Positions 41,757 to 51,312 of a DNA stretch of 64,000 nucleotides are shown here, piece after piece; the first letter of the stretch is position 1, and the number at the start of each line of letters is the position of its first letter. Origin of the DNA: Candidatus Nitrosotenuis chungbukensis (GTDB lineage Archaea > Thermoproteota > Nitrososphaeria > Nitrososphaerales > Nitrosopumilaceae). Under the pieces are notes generated by a model that was given only the letters and a program-made list of their open reading frames with translations, did not search any database and was not told the DNA's origin. The DNA is taken from positions 125,396-189,395 of the forward strand of contig NZ_AVSQ01000020.1 of assembly GCF_000685395.1 (NCBI RefSeq). The letters run 5' to 3'. The translations under genes and the position numbers were made by a program.

Positions 41757-43178
41757 CTATTGTCCCCACACCAATGGAATCAGTAGCGTAGTCAGAATCG
41801 CAGTTGAAATTATCGTAATTATGTTCAGAGGCAGTCCAATCTTCGCCATTGTTTTTGTTCTCACAAGGCCGCTTGATATCGCAATAGCGTTTGGCGGAGT
41901 GCTTGTAGGCAGGACAAACCCAAAGCTTGCGCCAACTGCAATTGGCATCATGAGCAGTATGGGATTGATATCCATTGCATGTGCAAGCGATGCTGCAATT
42001 GGGATCATAAGCGCACTAGTTGCAGTATTACTAAGAAACTCGAGAAATACCACGATTGTCAATAGGATCACAATTATGATAAAAAAAGGCAGTTCAACTA
42101 GAAAGGTCAGCTTTGACACAATCCAAGTGTCTAATCCAGTGGCAACAAACCCACCTGCCAATGCCAACCCGCCGCCAATCAAAAACAGAATGCCCCACGG
42201 TATTTTCGATGCGGATTTCCAGTCAAGCATTCTTTTACTTTTATAAGAAATTAAAAACAAGGCAAGCGATGAGCCAAGCGCTATTGCAGAGTCATCAACC
42301 ATTGGAAGTAGTGTAGACCAGAACAGCCCGCGCGTGATCCAAGCAATGACAGTTACTGTAAAAACCGCAAGCACTATTTTTTCTTCTGGAGTAATTCTGC
42401 CCAGTTCCTCTAGTTTCTTTTCAATGAAATTATTTTCTTCAAACAACGACTCCTTGCCAACCCTTACGGCAGAGACAAGATACCACCATAAAATAAAAAG
42501 TGATATTATGCTAACCGGCAGACCTACTAACATCCATTGAACAAAGCTTACATCTACACCAACTAATGATTTTGCCAAAGATGCAAAAATCACATTTGGT
42601 GTAGTTCCAATTAAGGTGGCAATGCCTCCAATACTTGCAGCATAAGCGATTCCAAGAATTAGACAGATGGAAAACTTGTCCTTTGTTTTAGGATTCACCG
42701 ATGCAAGTAATGCAGTGGCAATTGGCATCATAAGCAATGCAGTAGCAGTGTTACTCATCCATGCGGAAAGCGAACCGGTGATTATGATGAATGATCCTAT
42801 TACATACTTGGGTCTTGAACCAAATATTTTGAGTATGTGCATGGCAAATCTTTTGTGAAGCCCACATCTTTCAACTGCACTTGCAAGAAAAAAACCTCCC
42901 AAAAGAAGGAAAATTATTCTATCGGCATAGGATGTAGATGTCTTTACAACATCTCCTACGTTTAGCATCGGAAACAGAATCAGGGGAATAAGAGCAGTAA
43001 TGTAGATTGGTATTGTCTCTGTAATCCACCAAGTTCCCATCAGAGACGCAGTTGCAAGGACTGCCTTTGCTTCAAAAGACAGCCCGTCAATTGGCAGAAA
43101 TATAACCAGTAAAAATACAGCAATGCCTACAAAAAATCCCGTTTTATTTATCGATATAATCGAGTTTGCAGCATCCAC
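41757..43178 (-). CDS. DASS/SLC13-type anion symporter
   Basis: A 473-residue membrane protein of the divalent anion/sodium symporter family. Both Ser-Asn-Thr signature motifs are present: MSNTATALLMMPIA (N-terminal half) and LSNTATSALMIPIA (C-terminal half). FVLPTSTPPNAIAISSG near the end is also typical. Substrates in the family are C4-dicarboxylates, citrate, sulfate or phosphate; the sequence alone does not decide. GTG start at 43178 is supported by a strong GGGAGG ribosome binding site about 8 nt upstream. First gene of a two-gene operon with the cation antiporter. Confidence 0.9.
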   Translation of the reverse strand: MDAANSIISINKTGFFVGIAVFLLVIFLPIDGLSFEAKAVLATASLMGTWWITETIPIYITALIPLILFPMLNVGDVVKTSTSYADRIIFLLLGGFFLASAVERCGLHKRFAMHILKIFGSRPKYVIGSFIIITGSLSAWMSNTATALLMMPIATALLASVNPKTKDKFSICLILGIAYAASIGGIATLIGTTPNVIFASLAKSLVGVDVSFVQWMLVGLPVSIISLFILWWYLVSAVRVGKESLFEENNFIEKKLEELGRITPEEKIVLAVFTVTVIAWITRGLFWSTLLPMVDDSAIALGSSLALFLISYKSKRMLDWKSASKIPWGILFLIGGGLALAGGFVATGLDTWIVSKLTFLVELPFFIIIVILLTIVVFLEFLSNTATSALMIPIAASLAHAMDINPILLMMPIAVGASFGFVLPTSTPPNAIAISSGLVRTKTMAKIGLPLNIITIISTAILTTLLIPLVWGQ

Positions 43179-43409: not shown

Positions 43410-43697
43410 TTAGATCTTGTATGTCTTCTTGACAAACTCTAATGCTTTTTGCGCCTCAATGAGTTTGAGTTTTGCCTTTAGTTGTTCAGCTTTGAGCCCC
43501 ATCATCTTTTTCGAGTCAGATTTATCGTCGTATGTCTTTTCAATGTTAATCTTTTGAATTGATTTAGCCCCAAAGCTTTTCGGAGCCAGCCTATCGTCAA
43601 CGCTTGCTTTCTTTGCTTCCGCAGATGACATGCTAGCAGATACCAAGGCAACAGATAGAATTGCAATCAGACTCATGACCTTAATTGTCCTCACCAT
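43410..43697 (-). CDS. Small secreted helical protein
   Basis: A 95-residue protein with a clear signal peptide (1-28, ending SSAEA), then a Lys/Asp-rich segment and a long charged helix (GLKAEQLKAKLKLIEAQKALEF). ATG at 43697 is preceded by a near-perfect GGAGGTGA ribosome binding site. No family recognised. It may be a periplasmic-side small structural protein. A 45-codon frame beginning in element E1 (43829) ends at this start codon, so a leader peptide with translational coupling is conceivable but unproven. Confidence 0.65.
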   Translation of the reverse strand: MVRTIKVMSLIAILSVALVSASMSSAEAKKASVDDRLAPKSFGAKSIQKINIEKTYDDKSDSKKMMGLKAEQLKAKLKLIEAQKALEFVKKTYKI

Positions 43698-43796
43698 TTC
43701 ACCTCCTCTTGAGACCCTGCAAAGACTAGACGATCAGAGTTTTTCAAATCGCCTGCGTTTTGTTGTTTTGTCCGCATGAGGATGGTTCCACAAAAT

Positions 43797-43833
43797 AATA
43801 TTAGTAAATATTCAACTGCTGGCGGCATGCCTT
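43797..43833 (+). promoter_or_regulatory. Repeated bipartite element, copy E1
   Basis: TATTAGT ending at 43805, exactly 16 nt, then GCGGCATGCCTT (43822-43833). The ATG in the palindrome GGCATGCC opens an 8-residue frame (MPYYSKTV). One of five copies with the same geometry between 43.8 and 50.0 kb; it points toward the 3' end of the oppositely oriented gene. Confidence 0.6.
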
Positions 43834-43885
43834 ACTACAGTAAAACCGTGTAAATTCAAGAAAAGTTTTCAGAATGACAGTAGGA

Positions 43886-44470
43886 TCAGATCATTTTAGA
43901 TTTGATGTTTTTGTATTTTGATAGATCTGGAATGTATTCTATTTGAATGCTGGATGTCTGTTTTGCATTTATTTGAACGTTGTAATCGTTACATTTTCCC
44001 GTTTGCAGAGTTTTGCTCGATAGCACAACATACTGCTCAATTGGGGATTTGATCAAAAACGACGGCTGCAGAATTGCGGATTTTTCCATGCATGCCCTGA
44101 ACTTGACTAGGAATTTTTCTTTGCCCAGAGACACGGATGACAGTATTTTTACATCGATCTTCTTTTCTTTCGCACCTTGCATCAGCATGCCGATCTCTTC
44201 GTAATTTTTGTCAATTTTGCTTTTTCCTACGAAATACCAGCCTGAGCTTTTGTACAATTTTATGCATTCACTTGTAAAGACTTTATGCCCATATTTTTCA
44301 CGGAATTTTTTCTCGCCTAACTCTTTGTATCTTTCGTACATCAATTTACACATATTATCATCAAATTTAGCTTCAGCGGAAATAATTGAAGCACCAGAAA
44401 TTGTCATGGCAAGTACTAGAACTCCTGCAAACATTCCCAAACAGTTTATTTTCAGAGTTTTCAATAGCAT
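43886..44470 (-). CDS. Secreted protein of unknown function
   Basis: A 194-residue exported protein: signal peptide (about 1-34, ending SAEAKF), then a soluble domain with four Cys spread over the chain (CKLMYERYKEL, SECIKLYKSSGWYFVG, FRACMEKSA, GKCNDY). The Cys may pair as disulfides outside the cell. No known family. ATG at 44470 is preceded by AGGGGA at a good distance. A 13-bp inverted repeat lies immediately upstream. Confidence 0.65.
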   Translation of the reverse strand: MLLKTLKINCLGMFAGVLVLAMTISGASIISAEAKFDDNMCKLMYERYKELGEKKFREKYGHKVFTSECIKLYKSSGWYFVGKSKIDKNYEEIGMLMQGAKEKKIDVKILSSVSLGKEKFLVKFRACMEKSAILQPSFLIKSPIEQYVVLSSKTLQTGKCNDYNVQINAKQTSSIQIEYIPDLSKYKNIKSKMI

Positions 44471-44492
44471 CTAAATCCCCTGGAAAAAATAT

Positions 44493-44586
44493 TGAACACA
44501 AACTATCGACATATTGGGGGTTGGTTGAAAACACCTATACACACCATCTCGTAACGCTGGGTATGGAACGCCGTAGTTTGTGTTCA
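44493..44586. repeat. 13-bp perfect inverted repeat flanking 68 bp
   Basis: TGAACACAAACTA at 44493-44505 and its exact reverse complement at 44574-44586. The 68 bp between hold no frame of note. It lies between the start of the 43886-44470 gene and element E2. It may be a MITE-like remnant, an RNA stem in the leader or an operator pair. Confidence 0.55.
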
Positions 44587-44603
44587 TGACTAAACAATCA
44601 AAT

Positions 44604-44645
44604 CATATTATTAGTGCATAATCGTGGTTTTGCGGTGTGCCTTCT
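44604..44645 (+). promoter_or_regulatory. Repeated bipartite element, copy E2
   Basis: ATATTATTAGT ending at 44615, 16 nt, then GCGGTGTGCCTT (44632-44643). The start codon of the palindrome is GTG (44637-44639) and opens a 21-residue frame ending at 44702, antisense to the zinc-finger gene 44645-44845. Confidence 0.6.
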
Positions 44646-44845
44646 TACACCACACATTCAATCTTTCGCGAGCCGACAATCTGCAGGCATTCCAATTCAT
44701 AAAAACAGTTTAGGTGGAACTGCTCCACAGTCTTTTGTCCGCACACGATGCAGATTTTCTGAATGCTCTTCTTACATTTTGCACAAAGCGCGCTAGTCAC
44801 CTGAATATTTCCACACTGCCTACAATGTTCATCGGGAATTTCCAA
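44645..44845 (-). CDS. Mini zinc-finger protein, paralogue 1
   Basis: A 66-residue protein with the pattern CxxC-x9-CxxC-x7-CxxC-x8-HxxC (CRQC, CAKC, CIVC, HLNC). Eight ligands in this spacing would bind two zinc ions. Paralogues with the same pattern lie at 45770-45979 and 49198-49548. A treble-clef or cross-brace (RING/B-box-like) fold is inferred from spacing. TTG start at 44845 (MEIPDEHCRQC). It is the middle one of small minus-strand genes here; role unknown, perhaps protein-protein or nucleic-acid contact. Confidence 0.7.
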   Translation of the reverse strand: MEIPDEHCRQCGNIQVTSALCAKCKKSIQKICIVCGQKTVEQFHLNCFYELECLQIVGSRKIECVV

Positions 44846-44917
44846 GATGTGTGATTATTTTTGATATAAAGAAATAGTCACTGTGCCGCGGCGTGCTTTA
44901 GTTTCTGTTTTTTGTTT

Positions 44918-45721
44918 CTACTCCACTAGAACAAAAGTTGGCTTCCATCGCAACGGATCAGATGTGATGGTGTATGCTTTTTCAAAATATTTCAAAGCCT
45001 CGTCATATAGTTCCATCTCCTGTAGAGCGTTTGCCTTGTTGACTATGGCGCCAAGACGTCCAGGATTGATTTCCAAGGCCTTATCATACTGCCCTATGGC
45101 ATCTGCATACCTTCCTTGCTCATAGTAGGTGATTCCCTTGTTGACATATGCGGCATACAGTGTATTTGCGTCCACCTTGTCTGCATTTGTAATCACCCTA
45201 TCAAAGTACGGCACTGCATCAGTTTGATTTCCATATATTGAGATCGCTATGCCGGCATTAATTACTGCCCTATAGTCTAAGCTCTTTTTCATTTCCCCCA
45301 CTCGGATTGCCTGGTCAAAGATGTATTTTGCGCCGTCCAGGTCACCGGTCCTTGCCATCGCAATGCCCTTATCCACAAGAGCTTTGACGTTATCTGGTTC
45401 TCGTTTTAACGCCTCGTTGAAATAAAGAAGCGCCACTTCATTGTCTTCTTCTTTGAGGTTTTGCACTGCAGCCTCCAGTAGTTTTGTGGTGCTTGTTGTA
45501 GACAGCACTATGTTTTCATTGTTTTTTTGACCGTCCAGTACAATGTATCCTTTCTCTACTAGGTACTCTATTGCGTTTAGGAATTCTTTTTCTGTGATCT
45601 TGCCTTCAACCCACCATTTGGCAGTCTCTTTTACCCATGAAGGAATGTTCGGGGCAGCATAAACATTCTGAGACAGTAAAACCACAACAAAAAAGAAAAA
45701 AATGACAAAAATGACTTTCAT
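44918..45721 (-). CDS. Exported TPR protein with N-terminal W-motif
   Basis: A 267-residue protein. Signal peptide or anchor (1-22, ending NVYA), then the Trp module IPSWVKETAKWWVEGKI followed by FLNAIEYLVEKGYI (about 25-60). Next come about four TPR repeats (about 78-255; examples ALLYFNEALKREPDNVKALVDKG, here only its start ALLYFNEALKREPDN, and AIGQYDKALEINPGRLGAIV). It likely acts as a scaffold outside the membrane. ATG at 45721. Follows the zinc-finger gene 45770-45979 by 48 bp on the same strand. Confidence 0.82.
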   Translation of the reverse strand: MKVIFVIFFFFVVVLLSQNVYAAPNIPSWVKETAKWWVEGKITEKEFLNAIEYLVEKGYIVLDGQKNNENIVLSTTSTTKLLEAAVQNLKEEDNEVALLYFNEALKREPDNVKALVDKGIAMARTGDLDGAKYIFDQAIRVGEMKKSLDYRAVINAGIAISIYGNQTDAVPYFDRVITNADKVDANTLYAAYVNKGITYYEQGRYADAIGQYDKALEINPGRLGAIVNKANALQEMELYDEALKYFEKAYTITSDPLRWKPTFVLVE

Positions 45722-45769
45722 GGTAGATCATCAGTTCTCATCATTTAAAAAAATATTGCCGTGAGCGAG

Positions 45770-45979
45770 TTATGTGCCAAATAGTTCCAATTGGCAATAA
45801 CAAAACTCATGCAAATCCACCAGTTCTTTGTAATTGCAGCCAATACATTGTGCAAAAACAGGATGCCTGCATTCAGTACAATAGTTACGTTCAGTCATGA
45901 CGTTTTGGCATTTTTTGCATTGCTTTCTTGCTTCGCCCACCAGATCTTCCTTTGTCATACAGACAGTTAGTTGGTTCAT
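45770..45979 (-). CDS. Mini zinc-finger protein, paralogue 2
   Basis: A 69-residue protein with CKKC-x9-CTEC-x7-CIGC-x8-HEFC, the same spacing as paralogue 1. The N-terminal 20 residues differ and add another Cys (C7). ATG at 45979 or 45958. Divergent from the 46029 gene; element E3 lies between. Probably co-transcribed with the TPR gene. Confidence 0.7.
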   Translation of the reverse strand: MNQLTVCMTKEDLVGEARKQCKKCQNVMTERNYCTECRHPVFAQCIGCNYKELVDLHEFCYCQLELFGT

Positions 45980-45996
45980 GAGTTTGTTATGAGAAA

Positions 45997-46035
45997 ATAT
46001 TATTAGTAATTAGCCCCTACATTGCGGTATGCCTT
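45997..46035 (+). promoter_or_regulatory. Repeated bipartite element, copy E3 (promoter of 46029 gene)
   Basis: ATATTATTAGT ending at 46007, 16 nt, then GCGGTATGCCTT (46024-46035). The ATG in the element is the start codon of the 280-residue gene at 46029, and the A/T box lies about 25 nt upstream, so this copy looks like a leaderless promoter. Confidence 0.65.
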
Positions 46036-46871
46036 CTGAGATAGGAGTTTACGGAAACCTTCATTCATACAAACTGTATGTACTTCCAACGGCAAAGCGA
46101 CTTTTTGGAAGCTATTCATTCCGAAGAAAAACGGCCATAAAGCATCATGCTAATGTGCAAAAAATGCTGGAGATCCTAGCACTCCACGGCCCACTCACCA
46201 CGTGGGGAATGGCAAAGGTGGTCCTGCATGACGAGAAGTCTGGAATAAGAACGAAAGAAAAAGAATACAGAAGGTTGCTAAAAGGAAGAAAGGACCGCGG
46301 CAAGCATTCCCCTGGCGTCCTAGACGTTGGGCTAGTAGTAGCAGATGGTAAAAATTATGATCGTGCGCCTGCAGACATTTACAGATTATCATTACACGGG
46401 ATACTGTACTGTCTAGATGTTCTTGACTTTACAAATAAGGAAATCGATACGCTAGCAAAACACTACTCGCATGTTCTGCCATGGGTTTTTGGAAAATGGG
46501 AGTACCTAAAATCGATCATCGGAGGCGACACATATAGGCTAAAAACTCTAGCAAATGGAATTTTTCTTGACAACATACAGGTAACAAAAATGTCAAAATT
46601 CCCAGTGTTTGAGCTCCTCACATACCTATCAATAAAGTACCAAGAATATTTCGAGTACATTGATGAAAAGAAATTGGCCGATCAGATCTCATGCTGGTTT
46701 TACACACATCTGCTAATTTCATCGGGCTCAAAATCATCCATCGATGACGCGAAATGGAAAAAGATCACATCGGATCAAGAGATCAAAAAATGGTATTATG
46801 GCTTTGCCGACGAGGCGATAAGGTTCTACCAAGAAAGGTTCACCACAATCAAGAAACTGGGTAGAAAGTAG
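46029..46871 (+). CDS. Putative winged-helix protein
   Basis: A 280-residue soluble protein. Residues about 40-100 have a winged-helix pattern (MLEILALHGPLTTWGMAKVV, then a basic wing RTKEKEYRRLLKGRKDRG and YRLSLHGILYCLDVL), resembling DNA-binding domains with a restriction-like or helical C-terminal part. The C-terminal 150 residues are helical with aromatic clusters (WYYGFADEAIRFYQERF). No named family. ATG lies inside element E3, predicting a leaderless mRNA. Possibly a regulator for this island; unproven. Confidence 0.65.
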   Translation: MPSEIGVYGNLHSYKLYVLPTAKRLFGSYSFRRKTAIKHHANVQKMLEILALHGPLTTWGMAKVVLHDEKSGIRTKEKEYRRLLKGRKDRGKHSPGVLDVGLVVADGKNYDRAPADIYRLSLHGILYCLDVLDFTNKEIDTLAKHYSHVLPWVFGKWEYLKSIIGGDTYRLKTLANGIFLDNIQVTKMSKFPVFELLTYLSIKYQEYFEYIDEKKLADQISCWFYTHLLISSGSKSSIDDAKWKKITSDQEIKKWYYGFADEAIRFYQERFTTIKKLGRK

Positions 46872-46873
46872 CA

Positions 46874-47239
46874 CTAGGCGTACTTGTTGATTATGCCCTC
46901 TAACGTTTCAAAAGAATAAGGCTTCGATATAGAGTCAAGCAAAGACATGCTCTTGGCCTTGAGGTATTTTTTTTCGTCCTGGTTGTATGCGGTGATAAGA
47001 ATGACTTTGGCAGCAGGATCAATCTGCTTTATCTTAAAAAACGCGTCATAACCGTCCATTTTTGGCATCCTAATATCCATAAACGTCAGGTTCGGTTTGA
47101 CATCCTTGTATTTTGATATCCCGTCCTCACCATCACGTGCTGTGAAAACGTCATGGCCCATGCCCTTAATCATAAAAGCAGTATTTTCCAACAAATCAAC
47201 ATCATCATCCACCAGCAGGATGATTTTTCTATAGTCCAC
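46874..47239 (-). CDS. CheY-like response regulator
   Basis: A 121-residue stand-alone receiver domain. Acidic pocket VDDDVD (10-15), phospho-acceptor D55 in LTFMDIRMPKMDG, Thr/Ala switch region LITAYN and Lys in ISKPYSFE. No output domain, so it must act by protein contact. It follows the histidine kinase gene by 50 bp on the same strand and is the natural partner. GTG or ATG start region at 47239; convergent with the 46029 gene. Confidence 0.9.
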   Translation of the reverse strand: MDYRKIILLVDDDVDLLENTAFMIKGMGHDVFTARDGEDGISKYKDVKPNLTFMDIRMPKMDGYDAFFKIKQIDPAAKVILITAYNQDEKKYLKAKSMSLLDSISKPYSFETLEGIINKYA

Positions 47240-47289
47240 TTAATTTAGAACCTAACAACTTGATAAAAGACTTGCTGACAAATCCTCCA

Positions 47290-49164
47290 TCAGTTGGCAG
47301 GTATTGGAATTGTGACTGTAAAAATCGTCGGGTTGTTCTGAAATTTGATCGAGCCGCCGTGCTGCTCAATAATGTTTTTGCAACTTGCAAGTCCCAGGCC
47401 GGTTCCCTTTTGCTTAGTAGTTACGAGCGGTTTGAAGATGTCTGAAATAACGCTCTGCGGCACGCCAGAGCCAGTGTCTTCTATTTCGATCACAGCGTTT
47501 CCGTTTGCTTTGCTGATTCTAATTGTGATTTTGCCTTGGCCTGCAATGGATTGTATGGAGTTCAGTATCAAATTGATAAATACAATTTCCATTTTTTTCT
47601 CATCGCATGTTATTGTGATGTCATCGCCCTGAACGACAACTTGAATTGCTTTGGGTGTTTCGACTGATTTTATCGCAGAATTGATCATGGTGTTTAGCGA
47701 GACAGGCCTTAGGGAAAGCGGCGTTATCCTTACAAAGTTCAGAACGTCTTCTACCTGATGAGACATGCGAGATACTGCCCTCTCCATCCTTTGAATGACT
47801 TCGCCAATCTGAGGATCAATTGTAGTGTTTCTCTTTATGATGTCCATCCCGCTTTGAATCGTGCCAAGGGGGTTTTTCATGTCGTGTGCCATGCTCGCCG
47901 CGAGCTCACCAATGGCAGTCAGTCTTTCATTTTTTATGCGCGCATTTGCCTCTGCTAGGCTTTTTTCTGTTTTGAATAGTTTTTTCAAAGACACTTCCAT
48001 CTCGTTAAATGAGTCAATTATCGAGTTAATCTCTGCAATTCTGCTTTTTGGCGTTTTTGCCTCAAAATCTCCCTTCCCCAGACGCATTGTAAGTTTTGAC
48101 AGTTTGGCAAGAGGACTTGTAACAAAATACGACAGCGTGACACCCAAAATAGCGGCAGATGTTATTCCAATTAGCGTCGACGTCAGGAAGTTTTTTTCAA
48201 GTTCTTCAAACTCATCAACCACGGAAGATTCCTGTTCAATGACAACAGTCCAGCCAGAACCGCTAAAATCCTTGTACCCTATAGATGAGGCATAAGAGAC
48301 GAATGTCGGGCTTGCCAGAGTATATTCAAAGCTTCCATTATCGGATGTGATGCTGGAGAAATATTCTTTGGGCGTCTCAGTTGGGAAAAAGTTTCCGTTT
48401 TCAAATAACACGTTTCCGTTTTCATCTAGTAGTACGACTGTTTTTTTGGCAGCGTTTACAACGTCGGCATCATTTACAAACTCTTGTAGCAGAACGCGTA
48501 AGCTCACAGAAACACTAAGAGTGCCGATATAATCGGAAGAGTCATCCAAGATAGGATAGGCAAATGTCATCACATGATCGTTGTAATTACTATCAAATTT
48601 CATCGGCCCCACGTAGATTTGTTTGTTTTTTGTGGCCTGCCACCACTCCTCATCTGCCTGTACATAATCAGATTTGCCACTTGCCAACGCGATGTTTGCA
48701 CCGTATTGATTCGTTACAAATAATTCCTTAATCACGTCATAGTTGTATTCATTGTTGTACGCAGTTGCAAAATCACGCAGCTCGTCAGATATTTCGTTTT
48801 TCAGGACATCCTTCAAAAACGGAGTCGTTTTACCGTCGGCCGCAGCGTCAATTTGTGAGTCCAGTTCGGTAAGATCGGAATCAGGATCAAAGTTTCGGTT
48901 TGATTCGGCCACTCTTGTTTGAATTTGTCTTATTTGTGTAAGATCATGAAAATCCGCAATTTTCTGATCTATGTACTTGTCAAGATCTTGCATGATATTG
49001 TTTGCCTGTGCCTGATTCCTAAGCAGTGTTGTCTTTTTTGCTTCGTTGACCGTAAAATCATAGGTAAAGTAGCTATGAATCGCATAGGTCAGAAAGAGTA
49101 CCGTGATTGACGCTATCAGCAAATATGAAATTCTCAATGGTGTCTTGTGTCGTCCTTTTTGCAT
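47290..49164 (-). CDS. Membrane sensor histidine kinase with CACHE domain
   Basis: A 624-residue protein: helix 1 (about 10-30), a large extracytoplasmic double-CACHE sensor (about 35-325, with WWQATKNKQIYVGPMKFDS and VMTFAYPILDDSSDYIGTLSVSV, each here abridged), helix 2 (about 330-352), HAMP (about 353-405) and HisKA with H427 in MAHDMKNPLG. HATPase_c follows with N box NLILNSIQ, G1 EDTGSGVP and G2 GTGLGLASCKNI. CACHE domains usually bind small metabolites. ATG at 49164, 30 nt behind element E4; partner CheY-like gene downstream. Confidence 0.92.
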   Translation of the reverse strand: MQKGRHKTPLRISYLLIASITVLFLTYAIHSYFTYDFTVNEAKKTTLLRNQAQANNIMQDLDKYIDQKIADFHDLTQIRQIQTRVAESNRNFDPDSDLTELDSQIDAAADGKTTPFLKDVLKNEISDELRDFATAYNNEYNYDVIKELFVTNQYGANIALASGKSDYVQADEEWWQATKNKQIYVGPMKFDSNYNDHVMTFAYPILDDSSDYIGTLSVSVSLRVLLQEFVNDADVVNAAKKTVVLLDENGNVLFENGNFFPTETPKEYFSSITSDNGSFEYTLASPTFVSYASSIGYKDFSGSGWTVVIEQESSVVDEFEELEKNFLTSTLIGITSAAILGVTLSYFVTSPLAKLSKLTMRLGKGDFEAKTPKSRIAEINSIIDSFNEMEVSLKKLFKTEKSLAEANARIKNERLTAIGELAASMAHDMKNPLGTIQSGMDIIKRNTTIDPQIGEVIQRMERAVSRMSHQVEDVLNFVRITPLSLRPVSLNTMINSAIKSVETPKAIQVVVQGDDITITCDEKKMEIVFINLILNSIQSIAGQGKITIRISKANGNAVIEIEDTGSGVPQSVISDIFKPLVTTKQKGTGLGLASCKNIIEQHGGSIKFQNNPTIFTVTIPIPAN

Positions 49165-49192
49165 TTAAACTCTAGTTTTTCAACTTATGAAA

Positions 49193-49230
49193 AAGGCATG
49201 CCGCAAGATGTCAGGTATCGACTAATAACA
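49193..49230 (-). promoter_or_regulatory. Repeated bipartite element, copy E4
   Basis: Reading on the minus strand: TGTTATTAGT (49230-49221), 16 nt, then GCGGCATGCCTT (49204-49193). Downstream, after a four-residue frame (MPFS), the histidine kinase ATG follows within 40 nt. On the plus strand the same palindrome supplies the ATG of the zinc-finger gene at 49198. Confidence 0.6.
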
Positions 49231-49548
49231 TTTTGTGAAACTTGTTTCATGAATCAGCAAATAAGAAAAATCAATGATTGGGCTTCAGAAATAAAGTCAG
49301 ACCAATTAGATTCGGAGAGAGAAAGGCTTGCACATTATGACAGTGTGATTAAAAAATTATTTTATGCATGCGAATACTGCGATGGTGCACTCATACATTT
49401 GGCAAATTGCATTGCTTGCAAAAGAGCAACTATCAGAAAGTGCACGCACTGCAACACCGAATTAAGAATCACACATACGACGTGTGAAACATCAGGCAAA
49501 TTTGAGAGTCAAGGTGCCAGTTCTGCATCGGGGGCAGTAAAGCAATGA
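49198..49548 (+). CDS. Mini zinc-finger protein, paralogue 3, with N-terminal extension
   Basis: A 116-residue protein from ATG at 49198 (MPQDVRYRL). The C-terminal half carries CEYC-x9-CIAC-x7-CTHC-x7-HTTC, matching the spacing of the two shorter paralogues. The N-terminal 55 residues add another CETC and a charged helix (DQLDSERERLAHYDSVIKKL). A longer frame from 49147 would overlap the divergent kinase gene. The stop overlaps the next ATG (ATGA), so it is coupled to the secreted-protein gene. Confidence 0.7.
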   Translation: MPQDVRYRLITFCETCFMNQQIRKINDWASEIKSDQLDSERERLAHYDSVIKKLFYACEYCDGALIHLANCIACKRATIRKCTHCNTELRITHTTCETSGKFESQGASSASGAVKQ

Positions 49549-49991
49549 TAAAGCTACTCGGCATCTCTTTAATGGTAGCACTAGTAATTTTGGCCAACAC
49601 GTCTTTGCATTCTGACGCTGCAGTCACGTATGAGAAACAGGAAAACTCAAAATATGTCAAGGATAGAATTGCAGAGCCGCTAAAAGGAAAGTCCGGCTGG
49701 TGGAAGTACATTCTAAGGGTATGTGCAGACGACCATAGCTTGGGCATAACAGAGGTTGTTTTGAGCTCAGACATAGAGACCATCTATCAGGGCGTAAACA
49801 AGGTAATTCCAAAAGGAGATTGTAGTATCTACGGTGCAGTGATGAAGGCAAAAAACGGCAACACTCTAGGATACAAGATAACCCAGAGTCATGAGGCCGT
49901 GCAGAAAGTAATAGACTCAAAACAGGGAAAGATCACAGGCAGTAGTTGGTCCGAGATAGGAAGGTACAAGTTCATTTTAGGATACTTCTAA
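49545..49991 (+). CDS. Secreted protein of unknown function
   Basis: A 148-residue exported protein: signal peptide (about 1-25, ending SDAAV), then a soluble domain with two Cys (LRVCADDHSLG and GDCSIYGAVMKAKNG) that may pair. No family recognised; weak resemblance in style to the 43886-44470 protein. ATG overlaps the zinc-finger stop by 4 bp, so the pair is co-translated. Element E5 lies at and beyond its 3' end, pointing against it. Confidence 0.65.
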   Translation: MIKLLGISLMVALVILANTSLHSDAAVTYEKQENSKYVKDRIAEPLKGKSGWWKYILRVCADDHSLGITEVVLSSDIETIYQGVNKVIPKGDCSIYGAVMKAKNGNTLGYKITQSHEAVQKVIDSKQGKITGSSWSEIGRYKFILGYF

Positions 49992-49995
49992 AATG

Positions 49996-50034
49996 AAAGG
50001 CATGCCGCAACTAATGGACAAGTGATAATAATTA
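49996..50034 (-). promoter_or_regulatory. Repeated bipartite element, copy E5
   Basis: Reading on the minus strand: AATTATTAT (about 50033-50025, one change from the others), 16 nt, then GCGGCATGCCTT (50008-49997). The ATG at 50003 opens an 8-residue frame (MPFILEVS) antisense to the end of the secreted-protein gene. Confidence 0.55.
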
Positions 50035-50087
50035 AATGAAAAAATATTCATCATGCGTGTCGGATATACAACGAAGCGCTGTCATAT

Positions 50088-50119
50088 CAGATGGGGTGGA
50101 AGTGCAACCACCCCATCTG
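50088..50119 (+). other. Perfect 12-bp hairpin with 8-nt loop
   Basis: CAGATGGGGTGG (50088-50099), loop AAGTGCAA, and CCACCCCATCTG (50108-50119). A flanking T/G adds a wobble pair in RNA. It lies 34 nt before the 28-residue zinc microprotein. It has no T-tract, so it is not a simple intrinsic terminator; an RNA control structure, attenuator or transposon-end remnant are the options. Confidence 0.65.
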
Positions 50120-50153
50120 GTTCACATGTGCTGAAAACAGATTTGTGATCATC

Positions 50154-50240
50154 ATGAAATGTAAAAAATGTGGAAAAGAATTTGAAAACAGGAGATCGGA
50201 ATTTTGCTCCCTTGATTGTGCGAGCAATTATTCAAGCTAA
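50154..50240 (+). CDS. 28-residue zinc-binding microprotein
   Basis: The frame from ATG at 50154 to TAA at 50238-50240 encodes MKCKKCGKEFENRRSEF followed by CSLDC and six more residues. CxxC-x11-CxxxC is a compact zinc knuckle of the kind seen in small archaeal zinc ribbons. It ends 4 bp before the ATG of the Ig/W-motif gene on the same strand. The density of ligands in so short a frame makes chance unlikely, but nothing proves translation. Confidence 0.55.
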   Translation: MKCKKCGKEFENRRSEFCSLDCASNYSS

Positions 50241-50244
50241 AGTT

Positions 50245-51312
50245 ATGCAAAAACGACAACGTACTGCAACATTCCAAGAATGTAGAAACCATCATGTATC
50301 ATATGAACAACACATCAGAGTCATTTTTAAAATTTGTAAAAACTGTCTGAAATTCACAATGCCTTTGCTCATGATTGCGATGATGTCATTTTCAGCTGCT
50401 TTCGCAGATCCCGTCATCTTGCTTGACAAATCGACGTACAAATATGGTGACACAATCAAGATTTCTGGAAATGTAGAGTATCAGCAGGAAATGTTTGTCA
50501 TAATTCAGATTAGAAGCACAACAGACATTGTTGCAATAGATCAAATGTTCCCATCACGTTCAGGCAAGTTTTCAGCTACGTTTGACATAGAAGGTCCAAA
50601 ATGGCAAGAGTCTGGAACATATACGGTTCTGGCATCATATGCAGGAGAAAAAGTAGAAAAATCATTCCAGTTTTCAAAGCCAGTGGAAAAACCACTTGAA
50701 GAGAAAAAAACAGAACCCAGATTACAAGTGCCAGAGGAGCCAAAACCAAAGATTGTGATCAGGGGCTTTCCAGATCCTGCCAAATCCCCGCAGCATTACT
50801 ATGACAGATACGCCAATGAGCCAGAATTCAAGCACTGGTTTGACTCGATATTTGCAGAATATACAATACATGAGGTCGTAGGATACAAACCGACACACGT
50901 ACCCGGATTTCCTGACCCTAGTTATTCGCCACAGTATTACATCGACAGATACAATGACGAGGATTTATTCAAAGCATGGTTTGACAGACAGTTTTCGGAA
51001 AAAACAATCCACGATGTTGTCGGCATGACAGAACAAACGAGAATGATTATTCCAAGATGGGTAAAACAATACGCACAGATGTGGTCAGATGACGAAATTG
51101 GAGATAAACGCTTTATCGACGGAATTGCAGATTTGATAAGGCAAAACATCATCGTAGTTAACTACAACACAGTACTGCAGAACGATCAAGAGGAGGCCAT
51201 CCCTTCTTGGTTCAAAAACACGGCCAGGTGGTACGGTCAAAACCTCATAACAGATGATGATTTTTTATCAGGACTTCAATATCTGATTGAAAAAAAGATC
51301 ATAGTTATCTGA
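50245..51312 (+). CDS. Exported Ig-like protein with internal repeats and two W-motifs
   Basis: About 355 residues from ATG 50245; an alternative start is ATG 50359, which directly precedes the hydrophobic signal segment (MPLLMIAMMSFSAAFA) and has an A/T box about 23 nt upstream. After the signal comes an Ig-like domain (STYKYGDTIKISG). A 45-residue tandem repeat follows: GFPDPAKSPQHYYDRY and GFPDPSYSPQYYIDRY, each ending TIHEVVG or TIHDVVG. At the C-terminus are two Trp modules (IPRWVKQYAQMW and IPSWFKNTARWY, each with a following FxxGxxxLIxxxII helix). Same architecture as the 38449 protein, with more repeats. Confidence 0.75.
   Translation: MQKRQRTATFQECRNHHVSYEQHIRVIFKICKNCLKFTMPLLMIAMMSFSAAFADPVILLDKSTYKYGDTIKISGNVEYQQEMFVIIQIRSTTDIVAIDQMFPSRSGKFSATFDIEGPKWQESGTYTVLASYAGEKVEKSFQFSKPVEKPLEEKKTEPRLQVPEEPKPKIVIRGFPDPAKSPQHYYDRYANEPEFKHWFDSIFAEYTIHEVVGYKPTHVPGFPDPSYSPQYYIDRYNDEDLFKAWFDRQFSEKTIHDVVGMTEQTRMIIPRWVKQYAQMWSDDEIGDKRFIDGIADLIRQNIIVVNYNTVLQNDQEEAIPSWFKNTARWYGQNLITDDDFLSGLQYLIEKKIIVI

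Follow-up and report, generated by a model that had tools for sequence, protein, structure and literature searches.

The window analysed here, a stretch of 64 kb, contains a cluster of genes grouped around a two-component system (Table 1). The kinase gene is followed by the gene of a response regulator, and the latter is convergent with the gene that starts at position 46029 (g46029), an order that is conserved in relatives. The kinase carries an H-box and an ATPase domain, and the receiver retains the phospho-acceptor Asp. The response regulator consists of a 121-aa receiver only, with no output DNA-binding domain fused to it, which rules out a classical DNA-binding response regulator. The effector genes are situated outside this HK-RR-g46029 block or at remote loci.

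Table 1. Genes and predicted promoter elements of the cluster, in window coordinates
Feature	Position	Strand	Remarks
95-aa predicted secreted protein	43410..43697	-	element retained in relatives
28-codon leader ORF, predicted leaderless	43691..43777	-	ATG at operator +56; stop overlaps start of 43410..43697 gene
Site 1 TATA-like box ACTAATAT	43798..43805	-	16 nt from operator
Site 1 predicted operator AAGGCATGCCGC	43822..43833	-	
194-aa predicted secreted protein, conserved member of the putative regulon	43886..44470	-	
38-codon leader ORF	44471..44587	-	ATG at +56; stop abuts start of 43886..44470 gene
Site 2 TATA-like box ACTAATAA	44608..44615	-	
Site 2 predicted operator AAGGCACACCGC	44632..44643	-	
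66-aa Cys-rich (zinc-ribbon-like) protein	44645..44845	-	TTG start at +54
Sixth predicted operator, diverged AAAGCACGCCGC	44888..44899	-	CTTTATAT 16 nt on
Predicted secreted TPR protein	44918..45721	-	
69-aa zinc-ribbon-like protein, predicted leaderless	45770..45979	-	
Site 3 TATA-like box	46000..46007	.	~25 nt from 45979(-) and 46029(+) start codons
Site 3 predicted operator AAGGCATACCGC	46024..46035	-	complement holds 46029 gene start codon
g46029, candidate regulator: predicted winged-helix domain + helical C-terminal part	46029..46871	+	uncharacterized family
Receiver-only response regulator	46874..47239	-	D11-D13, D55, T83, K106
Histidine kinase dCache-HAMP-HisKA-HATPase	47290..49164	-	phospho-acceptor H427
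Site 4 predicted operator AAGGCATGCCGC	49193..49204	+	29 nt upstream of divergent kinase gene
Site 4 TATA-like box ACTAATAA	49221..49228	+	
99-aa double zinc-ribbon-like protein, predicted leaderless	49249..49548	+	ATG at +56
148-aa predicted secreted protein	49545..49991	+	4-nt overlap with zinc-ribbon ORF
Site 5 predicted operator AAGGCATGCCGC	49997..50008	+	
Site 5 TATA-like box ATAATAAT	50025..50032	+	
31-codon leader ORF	50053..50148	+	ATG at +56
Predicted secreted protein, conserved member of the putative regulon	50359..51312	+	

Five copies of a bipartite element are distributed over 6.2 kb of this cluster. An initial reading of the DNA, made from the sequence alone, had listed them as an A/T box and a GC-rich box separated by 16 nt, and all five are present with these boxes and this gap. 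The pattern TTATTAGT-N16-GCGGYRTGCCTT, allowing up to three mismatches, matches the window 4 times against 0.01 expected, and the fifth site carries the TTATTAT variant of the A/T box. The 12-mer AAGGCATGCCGC is exact at 43822, 49193 and 49997. A sixth, diverged copy, AAAGCACGCCGC-N16-CTTTATAT at 44888-44899(-), is missing from the earlier list; it has the same geometry, lies ahead of the 66-aa Cys-rich ORF and is kept in three related loci (L068, L069, L070). This ORF has only 31 codons in the nearest relative of the window genome, G076 (L070:6232).

When the sites are read on the opposite strand, each of the five shows the order AAGGCAYRCCGC, 16 nt, a TATA-like box (ACTAATAA or a variant), 20 nt, and an ATG, which puts the ATG exactly 56 nt away from the motif start in all cases. 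Similarity among the five sites is 0.92 in box 1, 0.72 in box 2 and 1.00 for the ATG at +56; elsewhere it is 0.39 in the spacer, 0.48 at positions 36-55 and 0.23-0.25 in the outer flanks. The whole 1.76-Mb genome was scanned for the 12-mer family, which is restricted to the five places in the window. Five similar copies in so short a stretch and no others in the genome are what a mobile or recently duplicated repeat might leave behind, and a mobile element had been among the first suggestions. However, the likeness is confined to the boxes and the ATG and does not extend across the unit, the positions of the sites are orthologous between genomes, and the sites regularly stand ahead of a start codon. 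A mobile or duplicated repeat, including a MITE, was therefore rejected and is regarded as extremely improbable.

The consensus of 71 non-redundant sites consists of AAGGCATRCCRCAAA, a weak TAT(T/G)G, and an AC(T/A)AATA-like box. This TATA box is degenerate and unusual (ACTAATAA, ACAAATA, TGATATA). A pyrimidine-purine step occurs at positions 55/56, and is found at the ATG/GTG of the motif itself as well. The centre of the TATA-like box and the ATG at +56 are ~25 nt apart, which is the distance expected for a leaderless archaeal transcript.

The sequence-only reading had placed the transcript on the other strand, starting at the GC-rich box. Among 85 non-redundant sites, 70 of which have a start codon at +56, the frames at +56 have a median length of 53.5 codons, compared with 12 codons for those opening at the ATG/GTG of the motif. 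Long frames of the latter kind are restricted to the 10 copies at g46029 homologues, and no conserved long frame follows the motif outside this gene. These lengths rule out the initial orientation as a general rule, and the TATA box serves the opposite strand at most sites. The variable base does preserve an ATG or GTG, as had been noted, but without a long conserved frame other than that of the 46029 gene. The suggestion of microprotein 5' ends is half borne out: the element does precede genes for short ORFs, but on its other side. Judged from sequence, the GCGGYRTGCC box would at most sites function as an operator rather than mark where a transcript begins, and the sites are best read as putative leaderless promoters with this operator upstream, on the strand opposite to that of the initial reading. 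The idea of a co-regulated set of leaderless promoters, which came from the same reading, is supported by the motif-TATA-ATG geometry, which all five window sites show and which recurs in the 71 non-redundant sites.

The motif overlaps the start codon of g46029, and the notion of a built-in start codon applies to this gene alone. The start codon is strictly inside G(C/T)GG(C/T)ATG in 24 of 29 full-length homologues and nearly so in 3 more, and paralogues at 45–55% identity often retain the motif over their start codon. The second copy that had been tied to a large gene, 30-40 nt before the kinase, was also placed correctly: this site of the block is conserved in relatives, and about 18 distinct loci have it 17–48 nt ahead of the start of the kinase gene. 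These two positions agree with a bidirectional leaderless promoter in which the motif is the 5' end of a transcript at every site and not mainly an operator: g46029 starts at the motif and the kinase shortly after it, at conserved distances, the TATA-like box is flanked on both sides by an ATG at a distance of ~25 nt, and the pyrimidine-purine step recurs at the motif ATG/GTG. The geometry allows the TATA box to fire in the other direction at sites away from the regulator. Nevertheless, we consider this explanation unlikely as a general account, since the motif-ATG frames outside g46029 (median ~12 codons) are not conserved, the conservation of 12-15 bp including RCAAA far exceeds that of an initiator, and the motif tracks the presence of g46029.

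The frames at +56 encode small Cys-rich proteins or are short ORFs, and genes of predicted secreted proteins follow them immediately, frequently with stop/start overlaps. In the window, the element of the predicted secreted protein family of the 43410 gene belongs to the cluster; in two relatives, G050 (L072) and G034 (L067), it is found at a locus apart from it. To compare selection on these ORFs, dN/dS was computed between the window genome and G076. The Cys-rich ORFs show selection, with values of 0.06 (44645..44845), 0.26 (45770..45979) and 0.18 (49249..49548), and the secreted protein 49545..49991 has a value of 0.04. For the leader ORFs the values are 0.48 (43691..43777), 1.9 (44471..44587) and 0.72 (50053..50148), so that clear selection at the peptide level against G076 is missing in three of the six. 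Leader ORFs at window position 44587 and at L067:5739(-), L077:9443 and L079:2456(-) open with ATGRACACAAAC (MNTN/MDTN), and the rest of their sequence has diverged; the shared opening is possibly a feature of the mRNA of leaderless starts rather than of the peptide. The long ORF at 50170-51312(+) is called from a GTG at 50170, but probably starts, with a signal peptide, at the ATG at 50359, and a 28-codon Cys-rich ORF (50155) overlaps its upstream extension.

The sequence-only reading had proposed a search of the genome and of relatives for further copies; although the genome itself offers only the five places, relatives contain many. A stricter pattern was used for counting, as a loose family-wide pattern (3 mismatches) was too noisy. 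With it, 205 matches were found in 200 Nitrosopumilaceae genomes, compared with 17 for a reversed-pattern control. The 50 genomes with a g46029 homologue contain 184 of the 205 matches (3.7 per genome), whereas the 150 genomes without it have 0.14 per genome, near the control value of 0.085. Among genomes with at least two sites, 31 of 32 carry g46029 (Fisher p=4e-22, relatedness ignored). The exception, G120, is 78% complete and has two sites and no g46029 match; the contig that was fetched stops inside the kinase gene. Conversely, G046, G065 and G101 have close g46029 homologues yet fewer than two sites. In the genus of the window, element and g46029 coincide in a split of 5/5 versus 0/12 (p=1.6e-4, relatedness ignored). 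Kinship among the genomes inflates the p-value of the co-occurrence, but presence and absence nonetheless vary within genera.

A scan for the core motif alone, in loci fetched by the g46029 protein sequence, avoids the bias towards fixed spacing that the pattern introduces. It revealed 41 sites against 0.41 in column-shuffled controls, with a WWATA/TATA-like box at +30 in 31 and an ATG at +56/57 in 26 of the 41. The sites thus have the arrangement of an activator-type promoter, a specific site upstream of BRE/TATA at a conserved distance from the start.

Remote sites in relatives precede a family of ~55-aa microproteins (~48-60 aa), which are followed by secreted proteins. The C terminus of the family reads (A/C)MDxxGLSWIF plus acidic residues (for instance L168:381-548, L174:2410-2577 and L173:2708-2869). 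The family occurs in 35 of the 200 genomes, with up to 5 copies per genome, and is absent from the genome of the window. A profile search on the protein, which takes no account of the DNA upstream, yielded 28 copies whose upstream sequence was long enough. The element is at -56 to -60 of 21 of the 23 microprotein genes in genomes with g46029, two copies being without it, and of 0 of 5 in genomes lacking g46029. Of all the evidence linking the operator to the regulator, this split is the cleanest. At L118:5544-5591(-) there is a headless remnant of the microprotein (MDVMGLSWIFQEDDYS), which lacks both the element and the usual start. In L204, L205 and L208, from genomes with a diverged paralogue of g46029, the site upstream of the microprotein genes resembles a larger palindrome, GGCATACCGTAATACGGTAT, between the divergent microprotein and paralogue genes, and is perhaps a second type of operator.

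The protein encoded by g46029 matches no Pfam or NCBIfam family, and no consistent Pfam match was found across its 29 homologues. A sequence search of the PDB gave only marginal, unrelated matches (E 0.08 and above), a search with the winged-helix part gave none, and curated family profiles of MarR, PadR, ArsR and TrmB did not match. AlphaFold models have a pLDDT of 87 for the whole protein and 84 for the domain, although four of five domain models are poor. The model contains helices 38–53, 58–66 and 73–85, a beta wing at 103–120, and a helical C-terminal part that is large and has no significant structural match. With the whole model, Foldseek yielded mixed weak matches headed by MukBEF subunits. 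The isolated domain gave a cleaner result, with mostly winged-helix folds (PadR, MarR, LmrR, TFE), none of which is significant singly (best E about 0.07). The assignment is thus based on the topology and the nature of the matches, and the domain is predicted to be a winged helix, a three-helix bundle with a beta wing. Within the family, which among 250 genomes of the class is found in Nitrosopumilaceae only, 28 of 87 residues are invariant in the winged-helix region, compared with 30 of 193 in the rest.

We infer that g46029 binds the element. The element might instead be a true operator of another factor, either a DNA-binding protein or a specialised TFB/TBP pair, with g46029 as a conserved target only. 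The lack of a recognised DNA-binding profile in g46029 would fit such a factor, as would the closeness of the box to BRE/TATA and the unusual TATA box. Against this, the element at the shared microprotein targets comes and goes with g46029, conservation within the protein is highest in its winged-helix region, and the other genes of the conserved block lack a DNA-binding domain. Another factor is therefore given only a small chance.

Taking together the element, its fixed spacing to the TATA-like box and the start, its distribution, its overlap with the start of the regulator and the gene order, the element is probably an operator that is bound by g46029 in leaderless promoters, and part of a system of a histidine kinase, a stand-alone receiver and a separate winged-helix factor. 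The operator would occupy -56 to -42 from the start, a fixed 16 nt upstream of the BRE/TATA region, and transcription would begin at or beside the ATG, at the conserved pyrimidine-purine step (position 56). Since the receiver retains the phospho-acceptor residues and lacks a domain for DNA binding, it would most likely control the g46029 factor by protein-protein contact.

The sign of the regulation is suggested by the location of the sites. Known archaeal activators bind just upstream of BRE/TATA, and a factor in that place would activate the zinc-ribbon, leader-ORF/microprotein and secreted-protein genes. Where the site covers the start codon of the regulator itself, and where it lies ~30 nt before the kinase start, the factor would repress its own locus. 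This combination of effector activation with autorepression is slightly favoured. A factor that represses all its targets until signal reception lifts the repression is a less likely but serious alternative: winged-helix regulators such as MarR and PadR, the relatives of g46029 by predicted fold, are often repressors, and binding over the own start codon would itself repress. The effector sites, however, are placed upstream of BRE/TATA with fixed spacing as for known archaeal activators (PMC5937170, PMC5512572), and a repressor would have no need of the fixed helical spacing there. The fuller proposal, in which kinase, stand-alone receiver and a factor of a new family form a split response regulator that is both activator and autorepressor, with the leader microproteins as partners of the secreted products or feedback elements, is tentative, and we would rate it at somewhat below even.

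The logic of an operator combined with an activator is known in archaea. The TFB-RF1 protein (PF1088) of Pyrococcus likewise has a palindromic operator at a conserved distance to BRE/TATA, near its own gene, and a small regulon; its footprint covers -47 to -70, upstream of BRE/TATA (PMC5937170). It differs from the system described here in its motif, TCTGAANTTCAGA, for which no overlap with the start codon of the regulator is described, in a differently defined protein and in having no tie to a histidine kinase (PMC5937170). EarA and Ptr2 similarly bind immediately upstream of BRE/TATA, where they aid the recruitment of TBP or TFB, but these are other proteins with no kinase/receiver partner, and the EarA sites are short and multiple (PMC5512572). 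The response regulator of the cluster belongs to the receiver-only (CheY-like) class, which makes up about 75% of thaumarchaeal response regulators and whose outputs are unknown (PMC5847659). Most members of this class have no conserved gene neighbourhood, whereas here the neighbourhood contains a kinase, a predicted winged-helix protein and its cognate predicted operator; the REC-only/ArsR-family pairs that have been reported belong to a different family and are transcribed divergently (PMC5847659). With MarR and PadR, g46029 shares the predicted fold and an operator over its own promoter, but it has no detected sequence relation to them and has the large helical C-terminal part.

The sequence-only reading knew of no described element of this kind, and none was encountered in the literature searched. 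There was no archaeal paper among the matches listed for the motif string, and the search found neither a promoter or regulon study for these genes nor an operator worked out for any transcription factor of an ammonia-oxidizing archaeon. The literature searched likewise contained neither this operator and its factor family, nor their tie to a kinase and a bare receiver, nor the microprotein family. Two undescribed protein families, the g46029 regulator and the ~55-aa microprotein, are added. Ammonia-oxidizing archaea are among the most abundant archaea. The locus brings together a kinase, a bare receiver, a candidate DNA-binding protein, a predicted operator and targets, which opens the route from a signal to its genes to direct tests. 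A gene for a DASS-family sodium/anion symporter (41757-43178(-)) adjoins the cluster and is found beside sites in G034, G050 and G088 too, which may hint at a carboxylate or other anion as the signal for the dCache kinase.
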